A stretch of DNA of 64,000 bases, taken from assembly GCA_032622095.1 (NCBI GenBank), contig CP136063.1:215095982-215159981 (forward strand), in the 5' to 3' direction. Shown one piece after another: positions 24,209 to 59,772 of the stretch. The notes below the pieces were generated by a model. That model saw only the letters and a program-made list of their open reading frames with translations, did not search any database and was not told the origin of the DNA. The DNA is from Siphonodentalium dalli (Eukaryota > Mollusca > Scaphopoda > Gadilida > Siphonodentaliidae). How positions within the stretch are numbered: the first letter of the stretch is position 1; each line of letters begins with the position of its first letter. The position numbers and the translations under genes were made by a program.

Positions 24209-24275
24209 TCACTGTCAAATAGCAAAAGGATGCTTGGTCTATCATATGTATAAAAGATTTTTTTTCTTCTCTAAG

Positions 24276-26471
24276 GTAAGAATTTGGCTACAAAGAAACT
24301 CGAGATTCGGGCAGAGAAAAGCTCAGCAACAGTGGAAATCACTCCAAAAGTGGAAATCACTCCAAAAGTGGAAATCACTCCAAAAAAGATGAAAATCACT
24401 CCAAAAGTGGAAATCACTCCAAAAGTGAAAATCACTCTAAAAGTGGAAATCACTCCAAAAGTGGAAATCACTCCAAAAGTGAAAACAAAAGTGGAAATCA
24501 CTCCAAAAGTGGAAATCACTCCAAAAGTGAAAATCACTCCAAAAGTGACCAGTGAAGTGGATAAAAAGCATGAAGGAAAGGTTAAAAAGGAGAAAACAGA
24601 AGCGGAAAAGCCGTCTGTGTCACAGCTTGTGAAACCAGTGAGAACTCTGAAAGCTCGTGCTGCAGACACTGACCAGACTGATGCAGAAGATTCATATAGT
24701 TCCAACGTAGTCGGTATCAAACAATGTGTTGACACCAAAGTCATCATAAAATCTGTTTCCATGAAAAAAATAGGAAGTTTACAGCCTTTTCTTGGAAGGA
24801 AAGCTGTACGAACTCAAATCGTTGTAAAGCCGAAAAGTAAACTGCTTCCAGAGGCGTATAAAATGCGCAACAAAATTCCAGTGGTGCTTCCCGAGGTCAA
24901 AAGGGTCAAGAAGGTTGATAAGCCTGATGATGCAACGCGAGAATTTCTTGCTAAGAACAAAGAGAAAAGTTTGCCTGTTAAAAACATTGTTCCGCCACGG
25001 AAGAAGAAAATTAAAAAGGTGAAACCAAAGCACAATTCTGATAGTGAATGTGAAGAAGGGGAGGTAACCGACAGTAGTTATGATGAGGTTGAGGACACGG
25101 ATAGCGACAGTGATATTATTCGTCTAACGGGATCTGACAGTCGAGACCATAGTCAAAATGAGGATTCTAATATGGCGAAAAAATTTCCATCTGGAAGCCA
25201 AAATCCTGCACTTGATATGAGCGAAGCCCTTCGTGAAGTTTATACAAAGGATTCTAGCGCTGATATCGATAACGCAGATCAGAATAATTGTGCGCACATG
25301 GAAATTTGTGGAGAAAATGATGTTGGTGATATGGAAGAAAAATCACCAAACGACAAACATCAAGGTGTGGATATTCTTGAGCAGACGTCAACGTCTCATG
25401 ATTCAGATTGCCATCACAAGCAGACTATTAGCGAGTCTCCGGGATGTGAAGTAATGGAAACACCTGAAGGTATTCATGACATTTCCGCTGATGAAGAGAA
25501 AGATCTTGAATCAACTGGTAATCGTGTGAATACTTCCAAAGAGCATACTGCTGATGTTACATTAAGTGTGGACAGAGAATCTGATGCTGTAAAAGTGGAA
25601 CATTGTGACAAGGTCATGCCATTTAGGAGCGACAATCGAGATGAAATACATGAGTCACATGACATTGTGAGTAAATCTGGTGATGTACATGTAGTTGTGC
25701 ATGAGGACCATGCAATCGATGACAGAGAAAGCATTGTTAAGGGAGATGATATGGTTAATAAACACGACAGTCTGCATCCAAACGTCGAGCAAGAAAAAAC
25801 TGAAGATATCAAACATGACAACGTGAATGACAATGTGAATGACAATGTGAATGATAGTGATTCTGATGAGGGTGCTGAGGAAGAGAAACCATGTGTATCA
25901 AATGATGAACACAGTGGAGATAATGTAGCCAGCAACTGGGACACATCGGATAATAGAAATTCTGATGATGGCCTTGTAGAAGAGACACCAAGTGAAGTGG
26001 ATGGTGAGGGAAATATCACAAACAATGCAACTAGTCACATAGGCACTGAAAATGCTAGCGATTCTTATGAAGGCCATGTAGAGGAGAAACCACACAATGA
26101 AGGAAATATCAGAAACAGTGTAGAGCGTAACAGGGACAAGGTAAATGATAGTGACAGTTCTGTGGATGAAAAACCTACTGTGTCCGGTGATGAACGTTGT
26201 GAAGTTAGCAGCAGAAACAGTGAGTGTAGTGAAGTTAGCAGCAGAAACAGTGGACGTAGTGAGGTTAGCAGTAGAAACAGTGGACGTAGTGATGTTAGCA
26301 GTAGAAATAGTGGACGTAGTGATGTTAGCAGTAGAAACAGTGGACGCAGTGAGGTTAGCAGTAGAAAGTGTGGACATAGTGATGTTAGCAGTAGACATAG
26401 TGATGTTAACAGTGGACATAGTGATGATAGTGACGAGAATGATGATGAACATTCAGACGGTGGAAATTCAG
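24276..26471 (+). CDS. CAAP1-like large exon, disordered repeat-rich tail
   Basis: Acceptor TTCTCTAAG|GTAAGA; donor AATTCAG|GTGAGG; 2196 bases, in phase with both neighbours. Early residues are a run of near-identical VEITPK hexapeptides (about 24336-24545). A basic middle part follows, with KKKIKKVKPK near 25000-25030, then long Asp/Glu/Ser-rich sequence. Near the end (about 26200-26420) comes a run of about ten-residue SGRSEVSSRN units. No globular domain, signal peptide or membrane segment is visible. Basic and acidic blocks alternate, as in many nuclear disordered proteins (inference). Reading on past the donor gives only a few more residues before a stop at 26488, so intron retention would truncate the protein. 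Confidence 0.8.
24336..24545 (+). repeat. coding minisatellite, VEITPK units
   Basis: An 18-bp unit, AAAGTGGAAATCACTCCA, repeats about 11 times inside the exon, with deletions of whole codons so that the frame is kept. Confidence 0.85.
26200..26420 (+). repeat. coding minisatellite, SGRSEVSSRN units
   Basis: A 30-bp unit containing GTGAGGTTAGCAGTAGAAAC repeats about seven times in frame; the last copies are shortened (SGHSDVSSRHSDVNSGHSDD). Confidence 0.8.
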
Positions 26472-26573
26472 GTGAGGATATGTTTTAGTTATTTTTATTC
26501 CACTATTACATGTATATAGATAATGCATGGCTTGCAGTTGACTATACCAAAATAGTGGTCCGAGAGAAGGCGT

Positions 26574-29163: not shown

Positions 29164-29333
29164 GACATTTATCTGGAAATTCCACGGACACAATTGAATA
29201 CATTTGCAGTGAAGAGAGTAACACTGGTGTGGACAGTGAAGAGAGTAACATGGGCAGTGTGGACAACGAAGAATCTAGTCACTCACCTCATCTGTCCTTC
29301 AAAAGTCAACCATCTAAACATAGCTATAAATGA
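29164..29333 (+). CDS. CAAP1-like exon 3 (alternative terminal exon)
   Basis: Acceptor GTCTATTCCAG|GACATT; the two bases GA complete the Gly codon left open at 26471. The frame reads HLSGNSTDTIEYICSEES, then acidic Ser-rich text to a stop at 29331-29333. The last six codons and the stop lie inside the first partial unit of the 53-bp array. Two phase-1 donors, GAGA|GTAACA after 29217 and after 29244, would join it to the exon at 30221. Which form is made cannot be told from sequence. Confidence 0.65.
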
Positions 29334-30240
29334 TATTGCTATTCTATTTCAGTCGATGGAGACTATCTAAACATAGCAATAAATAATATTGCTATTCTAT
29401 GTCAGTCGATGGAGACTATCTAAACATAGCAATAAATAATATTGCTATTCTATTTCAGTCGATGGAGACTATCTAAACATAGCAATAAATAATATTGCTA
29501 TTCTATGTCAGTCGATGGAGACTATCTAAATATAGCTATAAATGATATTGCTATTCTATGTCAGACGATGGAGACTATCCAAAGATAGCTATAAATGATA
29601 TTGCTATTCTATGTCAGTTGATGGAGACTATCTAAATATAGCTATAAATGATTTTGCTATTCTATGTCAGTCGATGGAGACTATCTAAAGATAGCTATAA
29701 ATGATATTGCTATTCTATGTAAGTCGATGGAGACTATCTAAAGATAGCTATAAATGATATTGCTATTCTATGTCAGTTGATGGAGACTATCTAAATATAG
29801 CTATAAATGATTTTGCTATTCTATGTCAGTCGATGGAGACTATCTAAAGATAGCTATAAATGATATTGCTATTCTATGTCAGTTGATGGAGACTATCTAA
29901 AGATAGCTATAAATGATATTGCTATTCTTCTAGGTCGGATGATGTAGAGTATATAAAAAAATAGCTGACAATGATATTGCTACCCTTCGATGTCATACGA
30001 TGGAGATTATCTAAAGATATCTATAAATGATATTGCTATTCTTCGAGGTCATGCATTGTAGAGTATCTAAAAATAGCTGACAATGATATTGCTATCCTTC
30101 GATGTCATACGATGGAAACTATCTAAAGATAGCTATAAATTATATTGCTATTATTTTAGGTCAGACGATGTAGAGTATCTAAAAATAGCTGACAATGATA
30201 TTGCTATCCTTCGATGTCAGACCATGGAAAACACATGACA
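29310..30240 (+). repeat. 53-bp minisatellite carrying a 3' splice site in each unit
   Basis: CAG ends fall at 29352, 29405, 29458, 29511, 29564, 29617 and 29670, so the period is exactly 53. Each early unit ends TTGCTATTCTATGTCAG, a pyrimidine-rich stretch plus CAG, followed by TCGATGGAGAC. One unit (29723) has AAG instead of CAG, making TGTAAGT. The distal third is a two-unit higher-order repeat with GTCAT in place of GTCAG in most units; the last unit regains CAG and serves exon 30221. Confidence 0.9.
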
Positions 30241-36491: not shown

Positions 36492-36697
36492 CTAATTCAT
36501 AGAGTACACTAATATCAAAATAATTGAGAGAAACATTAATACATTTATATGCATGGTTGATGAGTTGCTTGGTTGATTGTCATTCTTTTCTTTGACTTCA
36601 CGGATCCACTCATCTATCAGGCTTTCCATAACAGATAAAGGTAGTGGCCCATTGTTCAGGATAACTCCATGAAAATCCCTCACATCATAGTTAGGCC
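36492..36697 (-). CDS. DUF885 last exon
   Basis: Acceptor AATCAATTGCAG|GGCCTAAC; the GG completes Gly from the previous exon. It encodes PNYDVRDFHGVILNN, then GPLPLSVMESLIDEWI: the canonical C-terminal end of DUF885 proteins. A hydrophilic Asn/Ser stretch (NQPSNSSTMH) and a final hydrophobic segment, INVLMFLSIILILVYS, come before the stop. That tail is not part of the family core and looks like a GPI-attachment or tail-anchor signal. Confidence 0.85.
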
Positions 36698-37033: not shown

Positions 37034-37248
37034 CACTCGGTTTGCAAAATAAAGTTTTTTACTTGAACAAGGATTCAATAGAATTTGATTGGGAAGCAAA
37101 TGATAAAATATTTTTGAAAAGGCAATGACCACATGCCTTGATAGAGTGATGACGACACAATAATATATACTCTAACAAAATCATAACCAAATCAAATAGA
37201 CAGCCATCTATTTAGACTAGACTCATTCACATGACAAACATGAATATA

Positions 37249-37463
37249 CAGTCATGCCATAAATAATCGAATCCTTAACCACAGCAGAATTATGTGTAAT
37301 TTTTAAGGATTTAGTTGGAAATATGGCATGTTGCCATTCATCGGAAAGCTCTCAGTGAGAGCTTTCCATAGAATGGCAACATGCCATATTTCCGACTAAA
37401 TCCTGAAAAATTACCCATAAATCTGCTGTGGTTAAGGAGTCGATTATTTAAGGCATTACTGTA
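37249..37463. mobile_element. B-type foldback MITE
   Basis: TACAGTCATGCCATAAATAA to TATTTAAGGCATTACTGTA; GGCATGTTGCCATT is matched by AATGGCAACATGCC, a variant shared by both arms. Confidence 0.8.
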
Positions 37464-37529
37464 TATGCAGTTATAACAACAGTACACAAATTATAACTCC
37501 TTACATTTGCCACAATCAGAATTTTAATC

Positions 37530-38274: not shown

Positions 38275-38444
38275 CAAGCTCGCGTTCAGCCTTCCCTCTG
38301 AGCTCCAGTATCTTTAATTCGCCTATCTTGTAAGAACACGCCTGCCCAGGCCATGTAAGATACCGGTCGATCTCAACCTCGGCATAGTTTTGGGAGTAGC
38401 TTGTGTAATTGAGCATATATTCGATGGCCTGCTGACGGTCCCAG
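38275..38444 (-). CDS. DUF885 exon, RQQAIEYML and WPGQ region
   Basis: Acceptor ACATATGTTTCAG|CTGGGACC; donor GAGCTTG|GTATGT. 170 bases: one base finishing a Ser codon, 56 codons and one base. It encodes WDRQQAIEYMLNYT, then EVEIDRYLTWPGQACSYKIG and ELKILELRGKAERELG, the most conserved C-terminal helix region of DUF885. No internal stop and full family length, so this part looks functional. Confidence 0.9.
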
Positions 38445-38497: not shown

Positions 38498-38713
38498 TAC
38501 AGTAATGCCCTAAATAATCGACTCCTTATTAACCGCAGCAGAATTATGGGTAATTTTTCAGGATTTAGTCGGAAATATGGCTTGATGCCATTCATCGGAA
38601 AGCTCTCACAGAGCTTTCTGATGAATGGTAACAAGCCATATTTCGACTAAATCTGAAAAATTACCCATAATTCTGCTGTGGTTAAGGAGTTGATTATTTA
38701 GGGCATTACTGTA
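38498..38713. mobile_element. B-type foldback MITE
   Basis: TACAGTAATGCCCTAAATAA to TTATTTAGGGCATTACTGTA, lying 53 bases upstream (gene sense) of the exon at 38444. Confidence 0.8.
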
Positions 38714-38910
38714 CTTACGTGACAAGTATAAAATTGTTCCATCGGTATATGATACATGCATTCGCGAGTTGGAACCTGAATGGAGGATGTTGGTTGGTTG
38801 AAATCCTGTGATGTGATGTCATGCACAGGCCCCGCCTTATTATATATATTTCTGTATTTCCATACTGACCACTCAGCTCTAGCTCCTATCATGGAAATTA
38901 ATTAATCACC

Positions 38911-40861: not shown

Positions 40862-41482
40862 CGTTTATTGCTAGTGTAATCATCATATGTCATGAATGAA
40901 GAGTGTTTGTTGCTAGTATATTCCTGATATGGCATGAATAAAGAGTGTTTGTTGCTAGTATATTTCTGATATGGCATGAATAAAGAATTTAATGCTAGTA
41001 TATTTCTGATATGGCATGAATAAAGAATTTAATGCTAGTATATTCCTGATATGGCATGAATAAAGAGTGTTTGTTGCTAGTATATTTCTGATATGGCATG
41101 AATAAAGAATTTAATGCTAGTATATTTCTGATATGGCATGAATAAAGAATTTAATGCTAGTATATTCCTGATATGGCATGAATAAAGAGTGTTTGTTGCT
41201 AGTATATTTCTGATATGGCATGAATAAAGAATTTAATGCTAGTATATTCCTGATATGGCATGAATAAAGAATTTAATGCTAGTATATTTCTGATATGGCA
41301 TGAATAAAGAATTTAATGCTAGTATATTTCTGATATGGCATGAATAAAGAATTTAATGCTAGTATATTTCTGATATGGCATGAATAAAGAATTTAATGCT
41401 AGTATATTTCTGATATGGCATGAATAAAGCATGTATTTTGCTAGTCTATTCCTGATATGGCATGAATAAAGAGTGTTTGCAC
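40862..41482 (-). repeat. 40-bp minisatellite with acceptor-like units
   Basis: On the gene strand the unit is AAATATACTAGCATTAAATT followed by CTTTATTCATGCCATATCAG, about 15 copies, some 42 bp with CAACAAACACT in place of the middle. Each unit carries a TACTAGC branch-point-like word, a pyrimidine-leaning stretch and CAG. No exon follows it directly. Confidence 0.8.
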
Positions 41483-41768: not shown

Positions 41769-41840
41769 CTGTAGAAATGTAAGCCTGTATCAACAACTAG
41801 TCTGACTGCCCGGAAAAGTTCAGCTCCATATCTCCCTATC
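41769..41840 (-). CDS. DUF885 exon, RLVVDTGLH region
   Basis: Acceptor GCATGTTTCAG|GATAGGG; donor TTCTACAG|GTAATT. 72 bases: one base, 23 codons and two bases. It encodes [20 protein letters not shown], a core DUF885 segment. The AG left over plus C from the next exon gives Ser. The first 26 bases and the intron's last 25 are the source of the adjoining 51-bp array, so the true acceptor is the last of about 45 almost identical ones. Confidence 0.9.
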
Positions 41841-44125
41841 CTGAAACATGCATGGTGAAATAATTAAAGTTCAGCTCCATATCTCTCGATCCTGAAACAT
41901 GCATGGTGAAATAATTAAAGTTCAGCTCCATATCTCCCGATCCTGAAACATGCATGGTGAAATAATTAAAGTTCAGCTCCATATCTCTCGATCCTGAAAC
42001 AAGCATGGTGATACATTTAAAGTTCAGCTCCATATCTCCCGATCCTGAAACAAGCATGGTGATACATTTAAAGTTCAGCTCCATATCTCCCGATCCTGAA
42101 ACAAGCATGGTGATACATTTAAAGTTCAGCTCCACATCTCCCGATCCTGAAACAAGCATGGTGATACATTTAAAGTTCAGCTCCACATCTCCCGATCCTG
42201 AAACATGCATGGTGATACATTTAAAGTTCAGCTCCACATCTCCCTATCCTGAAACATGCATGGTGAAATAATTAAAGTTCAGCTCCATATCTCTCGATCC
42301 TGAAACATGCATGGTGAAATAATTAAAGTTCAGCTCCATATCTCCCGATCCTGAAACATGCATGGTGAAATAATTAAAGTTCAGCTCCATATCTCTCGAT
42401 CCTGAAACAAGCATGGTGATACATTTAAAGTTCAGCTCCATATCTCCCGATCCTGAAACAAGCACGGTGATACATTTAAAGTTCAGCTCCATATCTCCCG
42501 ATCCTGAAACAAGCATGGTGATACATATAAAGTTCAGCTCCACATCTCCCGATCCTGAAACATGCATGGTGAAATAATTAAAGTTCAGCTCCATATCTCC
42601 CGATCCTGAAACAATGCATGGTGAAATAATTAAAGTTCAGCTCCATATCTCTCGATCCTGAAACAAGCATGGTGATACATTTAAAGTTCAGCTCCATATC
42701 TCCCGATCCTGAAACAAGCATGGTGATACATTTAAAGTTCAGCTCCATATCTCCCGATCCTGAAACAAGCATGGTGATACATTTAAAGTTCAGCTCCATA
42801 TCTCCCGATCCTGAAACATGCATGGTGATACATATAAAGTTCAGCTCCACATCTCCCGATCCTGAAACATGCATGGTGAAATAATTAAAGTTCAGCTCCA
42901 TATCTCCCGATCCTGAAACAATGCATGGTGAAATAATTAAAGTTCAGCTCCATATCTCTCGATCCTGAAACAAGCATGGTGATACATTTAAAGTTCAGCT
43001 CCATATCTCCCGATCCTGAAACGAGCATGGTGATACATTTAAAGTTCAGCTCCATATCTCCCGATCCTGAAACATGCATGGTGAAATAATTAAAGTTCAG
43101 CTCCATATCTCCCGATCCTGAAACATGAATGGTGAAATAATTAAAGTTCAGTTCCACATCTCCCGATCCTGAAACAAGCATGGTGATACATTTAAAGTTC
43201 AGCTCCATATCTCCCGATACTGAAACAAGCATGGTGATACATTTAAAGTTCAGCTCCATATCTCCCGATCCTGAAACAAGCATGGTGATACATTTAAAGT
43301 TCAGCTCCACATCTCCCGATCCTGAAACATGCATGGTGAAATAATTAAAGTTCAGCTCCATATCTCCCGATCCTGAAACATGAATGGTGAAATAATTAAA
43401 GTTCAGCTCCATATCTCTCGATCCTGAAACAAGCATGCATGGTGAAACATTTAAAGTTCAGCTCCATATCTCCCGATCCTGAAACATGCATGGTGAAATA
43501 TTTAAAGTTCAGCTCCATATCTCCCGATCCTGAAACAAGCATGGTGATACATTTAAAGTTCAGCTCCATATCTCCCGATCCTGAAACAAGCATGGTGATA
43601 CATTTAAAGTTCAGCTCCATATCTCCCGATCCTGAAACAAGCATGGTGATACATTTAAAGTTCAGCTCCACATCTCCCGATCCTGAAACATGCATGGTGA
43701 AATAATTAAAGTTCAGCTCCATATCTCCCGATCCTGAAACATGAATGGTGAAATAATTAAAGTTCAGCTCCATATCTCCCGATCCTGAAACAAGCATGGT
43801 GAAATAATTAAAGTTCAGCTCCATATCTCTCGATCCTGAAACAAGCATGCATGGTGAAACATTTAAAGTTCAGCTCCATATCTCCCGATCCTGAAACATG
43901 CATGGTGATACATTTAAAGTTCAGCTCCATATCTCCCGATCCTGAAACATGCATGGTGATACATTTAAAGTTCAGCTCCACATCTCCCGATCCTGAAACA
44001 TGCATGGTGAAATAATTAAAGTTCAGCTCCATATCTCCCGATCCTGAAACATGCATGGTGATACATTTAAAATTCAGCTCCATATCTCCCGATCCTGAAA
44101 CATGCATGGTGAATTAATTAAAGTG
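41815..44125 (-). repeat. 51-bp minisatellite reiterating the exon's 3' splice site
   Basis: Gene-strand unit: TTTCACCATGCATGTTTCAG, then GATCGGGAGATATGGAGCTG and a short AT-rich link. Two main monomer types (link AACTTTAATTATTTC or AACTTTAAATGTATC) alternate in blocks that recur as higher-order repeats, some starting with a slightly longer monomer (ACAATGCATGG or ACAAGCATGCATGG). About 45 copies. Because 51 is a multiple of 3, one frame stays open as 17-residue repeats; in the DUF885 frame each unit ends in TAA after GRYGAEL. Confidence 0.95.
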
Positions 44126-44284
44126 TAGATGAATTTCCTTTCATTATGTTGATTACAATAAACAAAATATGACACAGCCTATATATTTTAACATGAACCA
44201 TTATAGTAGAAAATGTTGAACTTTATGGTTCTGTTCTCATTTTTATAAGCCCATTTTATAAAAAACGGAAAATATTATGTTATT

Positions 44285-45995
44285 AGTGTAAAATGGTCCA
44301 GGAGATAAGGGACCCTGTAGACTGACTAATTAAATAAGTCGCTCTTCAAAAGCTTTCAGCCTTAGGCCTTCCTCAGTTGATAATATCAACTGAGGTGACG
44401 TTTACACATAGCCGGTGAAGCCGTTACCCGGCGAACCCGTTAGCCGGCGAAGGTTGGGCAGAGTGTTTACACATCGCCGGCGAAGATACGCATATATTCA
44501 TGTGTCTCCTTTACTTGATAATAGTTTTCGTTTTAGTTCTCACTGAACTGCAATATGATATTGCTGTACGCATGTAAACATCTAGCCGCTTCCTGTTAGA
44601 AATATGGTTGGGCAGTATAGTGAAATGAAACTTTTTAGAAAAGGAAATGCCGAAATTATTAATATCAAACTCAAACTTTCAGGTATTGCTATTGGTAATT
44701 TTATAGATATTTAAACAAAATTGTTAATGGTTTGTTTGGGTTCATAGACAGCCTGTGAAGTGAGTGTCGCACCAAAAGCATGGTCATTGTCAGTTTTGAG
44801 ACATTTTCGTCGCATGCATCTACAAATTGGTGTCTATAATCATTCGGATTGGATATTATATTATATATATAAGTTTCAACATCGCGAATCAAATGTGACA
44901 CATTTTCCGTTTGCACATTATACAATAAAATATGTTTTTCATTTTACTCGGGCGTTCACCATGTCCATGTATGTAGGGCCGTGGCGATGGGGGTGTCTCA
45001 TCCCAACTTTAATCAATATATTCAAAAGCTGGAAATTTCATACCTGACACGGCAATGGTTGGAAATTTGACATCAGCAATATGTTGAAATTGTTCTCGTA
45101 GTTTTATTTTCAACAATTTGTTATTGGTGATTTCTTTAAGCAACATTTGCTGAAATGGCCATCAGTTGGAAATGATCCAACCTTAGATGTGTGTCAAGTT
45201 TGGAAAATGTCCAACAATTGGAAATCTTCAGGCTGGATGCTAGGATTTTGCAATTTTCAGGGTTCAGATTAAAAAAAATTCTCACACCTGGCCATAACCA
45301 CGGTCGGTCGATAAATTCCAAAGATGAACAGTCCCACACCTCCAAATCAGGCCCTCTAGACCCGTCCCTGTGTACATATGTCCACGGCGCACTCAGATTT
45401 AAATTATTGAACTAATTGTCCATTGAGTTTGAATCCATAGAAACGTGCCATCCCATTTCTTCCATATATATATGGACATACATGTACATGAATTAATTCC
45501 CTCGAATGCGCAACAAATGTACCATGCACATGCAGAGTACGTGTACCATCATCAGTTGGTATTTATAATAATAGCTTATAACCAAGGTGCGTGACCACCG
45601 ACGGACAGCTGATTAGAGACAATCAAACTGGCACACTGACCAATATATACACAGGTGAAAAGCGGGCTGGTCTATCAGCGATTGCACAATAATATTGTTC
45701 GAGTTAATTGTTGAAAGGAAATCACCCATGACGACATGACCCCAGATAAACATCTAACTTAACCGCAGAGCGAATTAGAATCCATACGACAATCGGGTGC
45801 TTGTACGAAATCATTTTATCCAAAAGTTGAAAACCGTATAGCTGAGTATCCGGATAGCCGTAATTCTTATCCGGCGAAGTACAAACACTCTATTGTTATC
45901 GCTGCCAGCTAAAGCGAATGCGATCTTTGCCGGGTAATGTATAAACACACCCTGAGGAAGGCCTAAGGCCGAAAGATTTTGAAGAGCGACTTATT
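44285..45995. mobile_element. 1.7-kb DNA transposon with 12-bp target duplication
   Basis: The host repeat word TATTATGTTATT is present on both sides (44273-44284 and 45996-46007). Inverted segments AAATAAGTCGCTCTTCAAAA near 44332 and TTTTGAAGAGCGACTTATTT at the right end match over about 45 bases; on the left they lie 47 bases inside the border. Inner GC-rich pieces (AGCCGGTGAAGCC, CCGGCGAAG) recur near both ends. The 74-residue - frame inside (44701-44925) is unrecognised. The duplication length would fit a Mutator-like element. Confidence 0.65.
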
Positions 45996-46213
45996 TATTA
46001 TGTTATTGGTTCGTCCTTCCATCTGTCCGTTCTCTTTTTTTTTCTTTTCCAGATGATAATTTTTAGTAAACCTGAACTGAATGGAATCAAATATTTTTTA
46101 CCTCCGAATCCAAATAACTAGTAATTGAGGGGCGTTTAATTGGATTATGAATCTTAAAAGGTTACATTAGTGATGCAGGTTCCTGTCAGATTTTGCTACT
46201 TGTTGCCACATAT

Positions 46214-46435
46214 ACCTTAGGATTAGAGTCACCTACATTAATGCCCTAAGTAATCGACTCCCTAACGACAGCAGAATTATGGGTAACTTTTCAGGATTTA
46301 GTCGGAAATATGGCTTGTTGCCATTCCCCGAGAGCTTTCCGATGAATGGCAACAAGCCTTATTTCCAACTAAATCCTGAAAAGTTACCCATAATCCTGCT
46401 GTGGTTATGGAGTCGATTAATTAGGGCATTACTGT
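46214..46435. mobile_element. B-type foldback MITE
   Basis: TACATTAATGCCCTAAGTAA to TTAATTAGGGCATTACTGTA, fold CCCCGAGAG, left arm slightly shortened. Confidence 0.75.
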
Positions 46436-46767
46436 ACATGTTGTTTGAATACCAAAATATCTCATGGGTGTCTGGAAAGAAATCCAACCACTTGTGAACA
46501 TTTTATATTTCTTAATTTTCTTTCCAGACACGAATGATATGTAACATTTCAGTTATTCAAACAAAAACTGTAGGTGTTCTTTTCATTATATGTGCACGTT
46601 TAATGCTTAAAGTTGCTAAATTCTGCAGCATTCTCACTTTTTATAGCACAACAAATTAAATAATACATGGAAAGCAACACCCCAATTTCTGACAATGATC
46701 AACTGATAGGTTGCAAACTGCTTTCAAGTGATGACGTTATTCGGCAAACTACTGAGAAATGACAACA

Positions 46768-46994
46768 AACTACAACTGTAGCTTCTAAGATATACATATG
46801 ACGATTTGCCTTTCTGTAATTGTCCGCAATTTTATAGGCAAGGATATAATAAATGTCCTTATTGTAGTAAATGTAGATGTGAACTCACATTTCATAGTCA
46901 TTTTTGTACAGTCCCATTTGAACACCAAGTCCTTCGGAATAAAGACCCCAGCCCTAAAATATACCAAAATATATGTGTTAATGATATCTAGTAC
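46768..46994 (+). other. small Cys-rich reading frame, unassigned
   Basis: The + strand frame reads LPFCNCPQFYRQGYNKCPYC, then SKCRCELTFHSHFC. The spacing of Cys and His (CxC, CPYCxKCxC, HxHFC) looks like a small zinc-binding or secreted Cys-rich peptide. There is no in-frame ATG before it. A possible acceptor (CAACTGTAG) precedes it, but no partner exons are seen. Lies antisense inside the DUF885 intron. Confidence 0.25.
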
Positions 46995-47149: not shown

Positions 47150-47366
47150 TAGGTAATGCTCTAAATAATCGACTCCTTAACCACAGCAGAATTATGGATA
47201 ACTTTTCAGGATTTAGTCAGAAATATGGCTTGTTGCCATTCATCAGAAAATTCTCAGTGAGAGCTTTCCGATGAATGGCAACAAGCCATATTTCCGACTA
47301 AATCCTGAAAAGTTACCCATAATTCTGATGTGGTTAAGGAGTCAATTATTTATGGCATTACTGTAG
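47150..47366. mobile_element. B-type foldback MITE
   Basis: TATAGGTAATGCTCTAAATA to TTATTTATGGCATTACTGTA, complete arms. Confidence 0.8.
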
Positions 47367-47866
47367 GTTTAATTTCAAAGATAAATAATTTCATGTCAGA
47401 TCAGATGGGGATGGTAATTTATTGAAGGAATCCAGCCACAAAATGGATTAGACTAGTTCAAGCCTTGAAATAATTTCATGACGGCTCATTACATATTCAA
47501 CCTGTTAATTTCATACATTCCGCCTGTCAACAAAATGCCACATTAAATATCGAATGTGCTAGAAAGTATCATCATTCGATCTTCAAAGAAAATTAACTCA
47601 TTCCAGTACAAAACTGAGTCATTGGTCAATTCAATTTCCATAAGCATAATAAATGTTGTACATTCCCATTCTCGTATGGCTTCAGATCCATAAATTAATC
47701 ATAAGTGTTTCCATACATTGCTGGTTGCTTTTGGAATTTCCGTGATAAATCGTCAACTAAATTAGGGTCTGTCACAATGGCAGGTACAAACATTTCAGCC
47801 TCTCATTAAAATTTCTCAACCTGTAAGTGACCATGACAGGCCAGATATTTTAAGATTTGGACTAGT

Positions 47867-48341: not shown

Positions 48342-48446
48342 CTCTGCATAAGCAGTATACCCTGGAAATGAGGCAGGGGCTGCCAGATTGCTGTAATCTG
48401 TCTCCTTCCTGAATTTGGGTATCTTAATCACCTTCTCATAATTGCC
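48342..48446 (-). CDS. DUF885 exon, PGYTAYAE region
   Basis: Acceptor ATATTTCACAG|GGCAAT; donor GCAGAG|GTATGT. 105 bases, 35 codons, phase 0 at both sides. It encodes GNYEKVIKIPKFRK and ends PASFPGYTAYAE, after which the family continues GWALYAE. The terminal Glu is the likely E of the EGWA motif and so a candidate metal ligand. Confidence 0.9.
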
Positions 48447-48543
48447 CTGTGAAATATTGCTTATTGATAACATGGGTACATGTACTCACATCTTCAAAAC
48501 AATCTGTATCTGTATCTTTTCCCAGTGCGGGAGCCTTTCAACT

Positions 48544-48742
48544 GTACAGTAATGCCCAAAGTAATCGACCTCTTAACCACAGCAAAATTATGGTTAAATT
48601 TTCAGGATTTAGTCGGAAATATGGCTTGTTGCCATTCATCGGAAACAATGAATGGCAACAAGCCATATTTCCTACTAAATCCTGAAAAGTTACCCATAAT
48701 TATGCTGTGGTTAAGAAGTTGATTAATTAGAGCATTACTGTA
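48544..48742. mobile_element. B-type foldback MITE, short fold
   Basis: TACAGTAATGCCCAAAGTAA to TTAATTAGAGCATTACTGTA; fold near ATCGGAAACAATGAAT, so the inner arm ends differ from other copies. Confidence 0.75.
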
Positions 48743-48963
48743 TGTTGCGCGATAATTATTGAAATGTCAATCGACCAGAAACTGATTATTTTCAATTAAC
48801 ACACTCGCTTGAAAATATAATTGATTTGTTTAATACTTTCTTTACATTGACAAGTACATGTACTTCCTTTAGGAAATGTGCTGATAATAAAAACAATAAA
48901 AGGCCACTGATCAAAATGACCCCCAAGTTTGGTGATTGGTCAACTGCCAATTGGGTCACCCGG

Positions 48964-50085: not shown

Positions 50086-50149
50086 AGCCTGAAGATGGTG
50101 TCCTGGTACAGCCTCGTGTATAGCGATTGCAGCCATTTCCATGGTTGGT
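50086..50149 (-). CDS. DUF885 catalytic exon, HEAVPGHH
   Basis: Acceptor GTGCTTTTTGACAG|ACCAACC; donor CAGGCT|GTGAGT. 64 bases: one base completing a Val codon, then 21 codons PTMEMAAIAIHEAVPGHHLQ plus Ala. HExxxGHH is the metal-binding signature of the family and is intact, so loss of catalysis is not indicated here. Phase matches both neighbours. Confidence 0.9.
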
Positions 50150-54348: not shown

Positions 54349-54456
54349 ACGTCTCTTGGTCGGAGAACATTGGCAAGGAAAATGCCAGGTCTGCTGCCGT
54401 CTTCAGTGCCAGCTGAGTATCGGCCAATAGGACCAGGGCTCACCGATGCTTCAACT
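54349..54456 (-). CDS. DUF885 exon, GSRPGIFLANV region
   Basis: Acceptor CTGCTACTCAG|AGTTGAAG; donor GAGACGT|GTACGT. 108 bases: one base, 35 codons, two bases. It encodes VEASVSPGPIGRYSAGTEDG, then SRPGIFLANVLRPRD, the strand just before the HEAVPGHH exon in the family. Another donor six bases downstream (GTGTAC|GTATAT) would not keep phase. Confidence 0.85.
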
Positions 54457-55693: not shown

Positions 55694-55785
55694 CTAATCG
55701 GGAGACCAGGGTAATCCTTGAATAACATTGGTAACTTCGCTGTAGCTTCCTTTATCAGATCCTCATAAATCTTAAGTATTTCCTC
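55694..55785 (-). CDS. DUF885 exon, EEILKIYEDL region
   Basis: Acceptor TTCATATTTCAG|GAGGAAA; donor CGATTAG|GTAAAT. 92 bases: 30 codons and two bases. It encodes EEILKIYEDLIKEATAKLPM and LFKDYPGLPI; DUF885 members have this helix and the LPxLF..LP turn directly before the VEASV-like strand of the next exon. Confidence 0.85.
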
Positions 55786-56604: not shown

Positions 56605-59600
56605 ATGGGTATAGAATGCGGACTGCGAACTAACCTCAAGGGAAAAACCTTCATCAATGTCTATGGAGCACTGGTTTCAGAGATAGATTATATTTTCCAT
56701 CCAAAGTCTATGACAGACGTTACAACAACCAGGGTCATGAATCTCTCGTCTAACCCATCTGACCATATACCAGTTTACTTGGAACTGCATGAAAGAATAC
56801 AAATAGCAAAAACAAATAAGACTCCTGCACTCTTAGAACAAATGTGTATAAATACTACACAAAATGTGTTACATTTGATCTTAAACAAAATTGTGTAGAA
56901 ATGACACATGACATATAATTATTAAATATGTCGGTGGAATATCATCAACGTTGAATATGATTGAATATGTGAGTGTATCATAGTTATTAGATGAAATGTG
57001 TTCTATTGGAGACACAAAACTCGTAAAGGCTACCACATAACAAACAATTGGCAGCAGCTTTAAACTTTGTTATACACTATGTTTGTGTAAAAACTGAACA
57101 ACACATAATTGTGTAGCACAAAGTTTTAAAGCAGCTGCCAATGTTTTATTATGGCAGCTTTTACGAGGTTTATGTCTCAAATAGAAAATATCTCATCTAT
57201 TAAATATAATATACTCACATATTCACTCATATTCAATTTTGAGAAAATTCCACCGACACATTTATGTCATGTTGCATTTCTACACAATTTTGTTTAAGAT
57301 CAAATGTAACACATATTGTGTAGTATTTATACACATTTGTTCTAAGAGTGTGTCATTTCACGGAAAGTGAACTGGAAAAAGATCAATACTGAACTATACG
57401 CAAGCGCTGTAACACACAAATCTGCAACGCTGAAGTGTATCCCCGGCTCTACAAGCACAGTTCAACTGCAACATGCTGTGACTAAATTATCATCGGTGCT
57501 CGAGCAGTGTGCAAATAAGGCAACTACAGCGAAAAAACCATCACAGAATAAACCAAATCTTGAAGTCTGGAACAGAGAGATAGCCGCAGCCCTATATTCA
57601 AATAGAAATGCGCACAGTGGCTGGGTAAAAGCTGGAAGACCATCAGACCACGATAACATGCTTTTAGTACAAAAGAAAGAATATCGTAAGATCTACCGCA
57701 CGAAAGTTCGAGAAGCAGTCAGCATGAAGGATGCAAGATATACGGACAAGATCACGACAACAAGGGCATCTGATTCTGAAACATTCTATAAATTAATAAG
57801 TAAACAGAGAAATTCGGGAGCCGTAATGATATCCGACCTTAATGTGGACGGACAAGCTAGTGTACAGTAATGAGCAAGTACTACAAGGCTGGCATCAGCA
57901 CTTCAGCAATCTCGCTAAACCAGCAGCCAATGGCTACAATCACAATTTCCTGAAACTATGTCAAAGGGACTATCAACACATCTCAGAATGTCTACCAGAC
58001 GACAAGTTAGAAGAGGTCAGCCGTGGGGACGTGATCAATGCATTAGGATTTTTACATAGAAGAAAAGCCCAGGACATCTTTGGGCTAACAGTGGAGCATT
58101 TTATCTTTGGTGGCGAGGACCTGCTAGGTATTCTAACGAGCATAATCAACTGTATCCTGATAAATAAAGAAGTGCCTGCAAATCTCAAGATCGGCCTACT
58201 TAATCCAATATATAAACGTAAAAGCGACAAGACAGCCTCATCCAAGTATCGGGGCATCACTGTGTTACCAGTTATCCTGAAAGTTGTGGAAGTCATCATG
58301 CGTGAATACCTACGAAAATGTACTCTACCTACACAAGCTCCAACTCAAAGAGGATTCACCGCCAACGCGTTTCCACTTAATAGTGCATTGATGGTCGAGG
58401 AGATAGTCAGAGAAGGCCTGGATAACAACACACCGATATATGTAGCATTCCTGGATGCGAAGTCAGCCTTTGACGTTGTCACAAAAGAAATACTGATGAG
58501 AAAAACATACCTCACAAACACTCACGCTGTTTGCTGGTCAGTGATCGATAACCTTCACACAGACCGAAGAAAAGTGTAATATTGAAGATTTCACCAAACG
58601 AAAGAAAAAATACTGTTGACCATACATGGGATCTGGCTGGGACACAGATGCCCAATGTCGATGTGGCAGCCCATATTGGTATACTCCGATCAACAACAGC
58701 CACCAAATCAGTCATGGAAACCATACAAAATAATATAAAAAAGAACAGCTTATAGTCTAATGCCGCTTGGCTTCCATGGGGAGAATGGATTGGACCAAGA
58801 GACATGCCTTCATATTTATAGGACATATGTTATTCCCACTTTGACATATGGATGTGAAATCCTGCTACCAGAAGAAAGACACGTCAACATGCTGGAGGGA
58901 TGTCAGAAGAAGTTCGTTAAGCAGCTGCTATCTCTACCACCAAATGTAGCCAATCCTGCTATATACATACTGTCGGGTCTCCTCCCGATAGAGGCACAAA
59001 TCGACTTGAAGGCTCTCACGTTCTTCAACAATCTCACCCATCAAGTTGAATCCTCAATAGAGAAAAAACTGGCACTCCGTCAACTAATCTTGAAAGATGA
59101 GAAAAGCAACAGCTGGTTTTCTGATGTCAGGAGAATACTGTATAAATAAGAGCTATCATCTCCATTGAACTTATTACAAATGCCTGGAAGGAAATTACTA
59201 AAGACTCAGTCAACCGCTACTGGAAGAGCTACATTACTACAAGATGCCATCTGTACAGCACCTTACAACTACTAGATCCCACTACCCATGCACCAGGAAA
59301 GATCAACAACATCATTGGTGGTATGAATTCAGCTAATGACATCACAGCAAAGATTGCGGTGAAGCTGAAGATGCTGACTAACACATATACGCTAGAAATA
59401 CACAACCAAAAATTCAACATTTCAAAGTCAGAAGGGATATGCCGTTGCTGTAACTTGAAGAGAGAGACTATTGAACACCTACTGTTGGAATGTGAGATCT
59501 TAGAGTCGGTCAGAGGGTTGTCTTCAACATATATCAAGAACATATATGATGAAATAACGAAAGAGGATTTCAACAACTTGTCGACAAAGGATAAACTCAC

Positions 59601-59772
59601 AGTCATCCTGGGTAATGGGATTCACAGATTGCAGATTGAGGATTGCGAAGGGGTTGCAGCTCTGCTATCAAAACTAAAGATCAGCTGTATGCATCTACAT
59701 GTATGCTATCGCTTGCACTGTGCCAGAAAGAAGTATTCGATCGACAGAAAGAACATTGGTGGCGACGAATGA
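56605..59772 (+). pseudogene. non-LTR retrotransposon relic (EN, RT, zinc knuckle)
   Basis: Pieces in order: the end of an endonuclease domain (VYGALVSEIDYIFHPKS...SDHIPVYLEL, 56605-56810); a linker region (57367-57840); the N-terminal part of a reverse transcriptase with RGITVLP and the catalytic motif-A text FLDAKSAFD (57842-58579); then, after a deletion removing the YxDD region, a C-terminal part with YGCEILLPEE (58760-59149); and finally CRCCNLKRETIEHLLLECE, a CCHC-like knuckle (59323-59772). At least three frame changes or stops and one internal MITE insertion make it inactive. Sits antisense in the DUF885 intron. Confidence 0.8.
56828..57350. mobile_element. foldback MITE inserted in the retrotransposon
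   Basis: CACTCTTAGAACAAATGTGT to ACACATTTGTTCTAAGAGTG; arms continue through TACACAAAATGTGTTACATT and ATATTCAATTTTGAGAAAATTCCACC-type text, with a second inner inverted repeat around GGCAGCAGCTTTAAA. Family not assigned. Confidence 0.75.

Follow-up and report, generated by a model that had tools for sequence, protein, structure and literature searches.

The DUF885 gene and its surroundings

We analyzed a single stretch of DNA 64,000 nucleotides long (hereafter the window), which has a GC content of 37.3% and carries a DUF885 gene on its minus strand. With a DUF885 profile that drew on 51 of the 80 bacterial relatives fetched, we detected seven minus-strand stretches between 60595 and 36495 that exceeded the profile's inclusion threshold, plus an eighth, at 55959-55693, that fell below it (E = 1.3); the stretches are colinear with the bacterial profile. 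Eight exons joined from 55785 to 36492, all with AG acceptors and GT donors, gave 293 open codons followed by a stop, and the best domain in the joined sequence scored 320.4 bits against the bacterial profile. The exon pieces joined without the exon at 46953-46889 scored 185.7 bits against Pfam DUF885 (PF05960), for which the cut-off is 32.4. Judged by its reading frame and splice sites, the gene looks intact across the modelled part (55785-36492), and its N-terminal part may fall outside the window.

The first modelled coding exon (55694-55785) is weak when taken alone, with a profile E of 1.3, while the next two, at 54349-54456 and at 50086-50149, the latter containing HEAVPGHH, are supported by both the profile and the joined frame. 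The exon at 48342-48446 was missed by the profile when searched alone and was placed by its phase, its position and the gain in score, since adding it lifts the profile score from 293.6 to 320.9 bits. It is followed by a 65-nt exon at 46889-46953 (GWGLYSEGLGVQMGLYKNDYE plus AT) with the donor AAT/GTGAGT (the slash marks the splice junction), and then by the 72-nt exon at 41769-41840, which uses the AG at 41842-41841 as its acceptor and CAG/GTAATT as its donor and is referred to here as the array exon. Two further coding exons lie downstream, at 38275-38444 and at 36492-36697, the last of which contains the stop. The first-pass annotation had taken the exon at 48446-48342 to be the upstream neighbor of the array exon, a pairing that does not hold, since joining 48342 directly to 41840 runs into a stop after DREIWS and the exon at 46953-46889 intervenes and supplies the phase: its terminal AT and the G of the array exon together make an ATG codon.

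The intron between these two exons (41841-46888) is 5048 nt long and bears a minisatellite at its 3' end. Since the array exon falls on the conserved core when aligned to the bacterial DUF885 profile and to the solved relative 3o0y, the exon sequence came first and the array was derived from it.

Several other elements were observed in the window. A second minisatellite (40911-41472) begins about 300 bp into the next intron of the DUF885 gene and can be read as 13.9 copies of 40 bp or, alternatively, as 4.6 copies of 122 bp; matches to its 40-bp unit in the window are confined to its own array (E 1e-3). Copies of a palindromic repeat, about 200-220 bp long and matching itself on both strands, occur across the window (46234-46436, 47153-47368, 48539-48747, 37244-37467, 38498-38714 and others), one of them inside the array-bearing intron. 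Reverse transcriptase pieces lie at 57830-59772 on the plus strand, where RVT_1 scored 31.3 bits (cut-off 29.6) and zf-RVT scored 26.5 bits, under its cut-off of 27.5; the frame preceding them (57346-57870) had no Pfam match. An open frame of 737 codons at 24275-26488 (plus strand) has internal tandem repeats at 24327-24561 and 26194-26430 but lacks any Pfam match at E 0.1. Neither a tRNA nor an Rfam match reaching gathering score was found in the window.

Anatomy, birth and turnover of the 51-bp array

The minisatellite in the array-bearing intron occupies 44119-41815 on the minus strand and consists of 45 units of 51 bp, each made of the last 25 nt of the intron (AATTATTTCACCATGCATGTTTCAG or variants) and the first 26 nt of the array exon (GATCGGGAGATATGGAGCTGAACTTT or variants). 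TRF reported one array with a period of 51, 44.9 copies, 94% matches and a score of 3764, the highest of its 33 rows in the window, and reading the units by acceptor recovered TTTCAG directly before the junction in 45 of 45. Both readings bear out the earlier description of an exon whose own 3' splice site had expanded into a 45-copy array of 51-bp units, each presenting an acceptor followed by real exon sequence. The extent first given for the feature (41769-44125) does contain the array and the exon, but the six nucleotides at its 44125 end are flank. The array exon resembles the repeat over its first 26 nt (GAT...CTTT) and diverges thereafter, so that, as previously claimed, only the 45th unit is joined to the full exon, its AG at 41842-41841 running into 41840-41769. 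The remaining 44 units (41866-44119), each consisting of TTTCAG and a copy of the first 26 nt of the exon, are referred to here as decoys. Matches to the 51-bp unit in the window are confined to its own array (E 1e-3), and a 36-base part of the unit had no exact match in viral_contigs.

The units are not uniform. Two are 55 bp and two are 52 bp long, such that 40 of the 44 acceptor-to-acceptor gaps measure 51 bp, two measure 55 bp and two 52 bp. Once indels are corrected, 15 of the 51 unit columns are variable, and the 45 units fall into 22 distinct types in the order ABCBBDEFCGGGHDFCGIJFKLMNCOGGMNCPQMKRSTUGGMKRV. This ordered and partly block-repeated series, together with array ends that join non-tandem intron and exon, argues against a collapsed, expanded or misplaced assembly. 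Arrays of this kind are hard to assemble, one of the amphioxus "mirages" discussed below was aberrantly assembled in a genome draft according to part of one report (PMC3087553), and copy numbers differ between two versions in passages of another (PMC3902484); even so, we regard an artefact as very unlikely, while the copy number of the array may be off in the assembly.

The unit length of 51 bp is divisible by 3, and one frame stays open over runs of units for up to 190 codons, as would be expected if the array encoded a repeated peptide with a 17-residue unit. The 55- and 52-bp units break that frame, and the conserved exon uses another; we consider a coding repeat excluded on these two grounds and give it practically no weight.

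The two ends of the array bear on how it arose. The sequence ACTTT lies directly upstream of the first unit (44120-44124, minus strand) and again where the repeated part of the exon ends (41815-41819), forming the two halves of a 5-bp microhomology. When random junctions 30-80 bp apart were drawn from the window with arrays excluded, 0.77% showed at least 5 bp of identity. Finding ACTTT at each end suggests that the array was born by slippage, in which a 51-bp piece across the 3' splice site would have been duplicated by way of two copies of ACTTT, one intronic and the other 22-26 nt into the exon. Alternatively, the upstream ACTTT could be left over from a partial unit, which would be expected to look the same.

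Unequal exchange would then have amplified the 51-bp unit to 45 copies. The units M-K-R-S (42223-42427, minus strand) differ from the last four units, M-K-R-V, by one mismatch in 205 nt; the M-K-R-V block contains the real start of the exon, and M-K-R-S is a near copy of it located eight units upstream. The next best lag for the terminal block gives 6 differences in 204. An A at +4 is found in only 2 of the 45 units, namely the last unit of M-K-R-S and the last unit of M-K-R-V. Because the block recurs and the A at +4 is distributed in this way, the block carrying the exon's own start probably took part in the exchange, and we infer that unequal exchange also involved the exon-adjacent unit.

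A second array, located at 29312-30221 on the plus strand between two open acidic serine-rich stretches, consists of 17 units of 53 bp. At its acceptor-like place, TTCTATGTCAG stands in 8 of the 17 units and TTCTATTTCAG in 2, while the last unit reads TTCGATGTCAG/ACCATGGAAA; a putative junction from A/GTCAAC fits the phases when judged by eye. This is possibly a second, more decayed boundary array with putative exons that lack homology support.

Choice among 45 similar acceptors

Spliced from the true upstream donor, all 44 decoys reach a stop, and the 45th acceptor alone stays open. In 42 of the 44, the frame continues for nine codons (MIGRYGAEL or a variant) and stops at the tenth, while in the other two it continues for 17 further codons before the stop. 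The expectation that use of a decoy would be unproductive is thus upheld for every unit in the array.

The decoys had also been described as nearly identical sites, and this proved accurate. Eleven of the 44 are identical to the real acceptor over -25 to +3, and 12 over -20 to +3; across the whole 51 bp, none of the 44 matches the real site, with six differing at one position. The decoy with its AG at 42249 agrees with the real site over 216 nt upstream, the G of the AG included, and over 11 nt downstream, and the two differ at +12. A model based on nearby sequence therefore cannot prefer the real site over this decoy, save by this single difference. Taken together, these comparisons show that nearby sequence cannot distinguish the real acceptor from the decoys.

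Two sequence features of the acceptor itself were considered as selectors and rejected. With 11 pyrimidines among the 16 positions from -20 to -5, the real acceptor ranks third highest of the gene's eight (range 7-13), and it is not unusually weak. Acceptor hexamers account for about 60% of choices in the portion of a study consulted here (PMC12480690), and all 45 sites share TTTCAG.

RNA hairpins between neighboring units could in principle hide the decoys from the spliceosome, and in the fold of a 193-nt stretch containing the last units, at -48.2 kcal/mol, units pair with one another over long tracts. This value corresponds to z = -1.30 for the one stretch folded, 20 of 200 shuffled sequences reach the same stability or better, and the real site sits in a similar context. 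We therefore treat concealment by RNA structure as unsupported and highly improbable.

What does set the real acceptor apart is that it alone directly precedes the other 46 nt of the exon and a donor 72 nt away. Since the acceptors are alike nearby and only the real one has the remainder of the exon and the donor, exon definition is the likely selector, although its operation here is assumed from the sizes of the intron and exon. The array would be transcribed and then removed within the intron (46888-41841), and it is most likely spliced out passively, with the real acceptor chosen by exon definition. We consider it very probable that this is a mirage-type minisatellite, born by slippage, removed passively with its intron, bypassed through exon definition, and mostly a tolerated by-product rather than a device.

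By arithmetic, the nearest decoys would give exons of 123, 174 and 225 nt, such that a degree of unproductive leakage to near decoys is possible. RNAs with a premature stop ahead of later exon junctions are expected to undergo nonsense-mediated decay, and occasional use of a near decoy would presumably have this outcome. The same observations could be read as regulation, with unproductive splicing to upstream units lowering protein levels and array length setting the fraction, since the nearest decoys would form exons of ordinary size and every decoy carries TTTCAG and leads to a stop upstream of two later exons. Against this reading, amphioxus mirages are reported, in the passages cited below, not to disturb splicing, and the variation among the unit columns leaves no conservation beyond chance. 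A count of 24 variable columns that ignored indels had given P = 0.016 for selection on the decoy acceptors, a signal that disappeared after indel correction, when the six invariant TTTCAG columns gave P = 0.11 and AG by itself gave P = 0.49. We accordingly claim no conservation for the decoy acceptors, and by this test there is no sign of selection either keeping or removing them. Protein-altering changes occur in the exon halves (G to E in 8 of the 45 units, Y to C in 9), which is what presumably untranslated sequence would be expected to show.

Regulated decoy use therefore appears quite unlikely, and tuning of expression by the array is possible but unsupported. A splicing rheostat, in which acceptors of equal sequence compete, transcripts are lost to nonsense-mediated decay and array length shifts output, is given a slim chance.

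Amphioxus mirages and other boundary repeats

The first-pass annotation knew of no named class for an array of this kind. Such a class has in fact been described as "mirages", minisatellite-like tandem duplications across an intron-exon boundary in amphioxus Adh3 and in the amphioxus globins BflGb6 and BflGb9 (PMC3087553, in the passages concerned), to which a later report adds PGBD5 while citing TnC (PMC3902484, likewise in part). In those passages, Adh3 data and globin RT-PCR suggest that mirages leave splicing undisturbed, length instability is reported, including somatic instability at Adh3, and it is proposed that new introns may arise from mirages (PMC3087553).

The DUF885 array is a mirage by its anatomy: its 45 units span the intron-exon boundary with 25 nt on one side and 26 nt on the other, all carry the splice signal, and the near identity of the M-K-R-S and M-K-R-V blocks corresponds, within a single allele, to concerted turnover. 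As described in part for BflGb6, the repeat takes in the 3' end of an intron together with the 5' part of the exon that follows, and many units of the amphioxus mirages likewise retain splice signals. The arrays differ in copy number (45 here, compared with 6 and 3 in two haplotypes of BflGb6 and 2 to 7 among versions of PGBD5) and in unit size (51 bp here, compared with 150-160 bp for BflGb6 and 10-72 bp for Adh3), as far as these passages give them. In addition, every DUF885 unit keeps its AG, whereas many but not all units do so in the amphioxus globin, as the passages describe it. That the spliceosome would ignore the decoys fits the mirage reports, although the amphioxus precedent for splicing may not carry over to this host.

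The repeated boundary in the DUF885 array is a 3' splice site, and a further 46 nt separate the repeated part from the donor of the array exon at 41769. A minisatellite with multiple splice donor sites is indicated, by the title of a 1995 study by Turri, in a human interferon-induced transcript, reportedly IFI 6-16; papers on IFI6 and on G1P3 both cite that title. Going by the title, the units of this minisatellite resemble those of the DUF885 array in carrying the host gene's splice sites, but they repeat donor sites rather than acceptor sites.

Human genes within segmental duplications have also been described as having internal tandem repeats at their exon-intron boundaries (PMC2812944, in part), indicating that minisatellite expansion can sit at such boundaries. 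In contrast with the DUF885 array, the repeats in that account are tied to novel introns and changed gene structure, and the variable ones average 4 copies of 30 bp. Beyond the lancelet papers, no acceptor array was recognized in the open-licence literature searched.

The DUF885 array is longer than the mirages whose copy numbers appear in the passages cited (BflGb6 and PGBD5). It also provides a clean natural test of acceptor choice: since one decoy matches the real site over 227 nt around the junction, the selector must act from the exon body, the donor or position. If the rheostat reading were true, the locus would be a natural experiment, perhaps outside the lancelets, in which only position and exon context decide among acceptors of equal sequence. 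Should the host prove not to be a lancelet, mirages would not be confined to lancelets.
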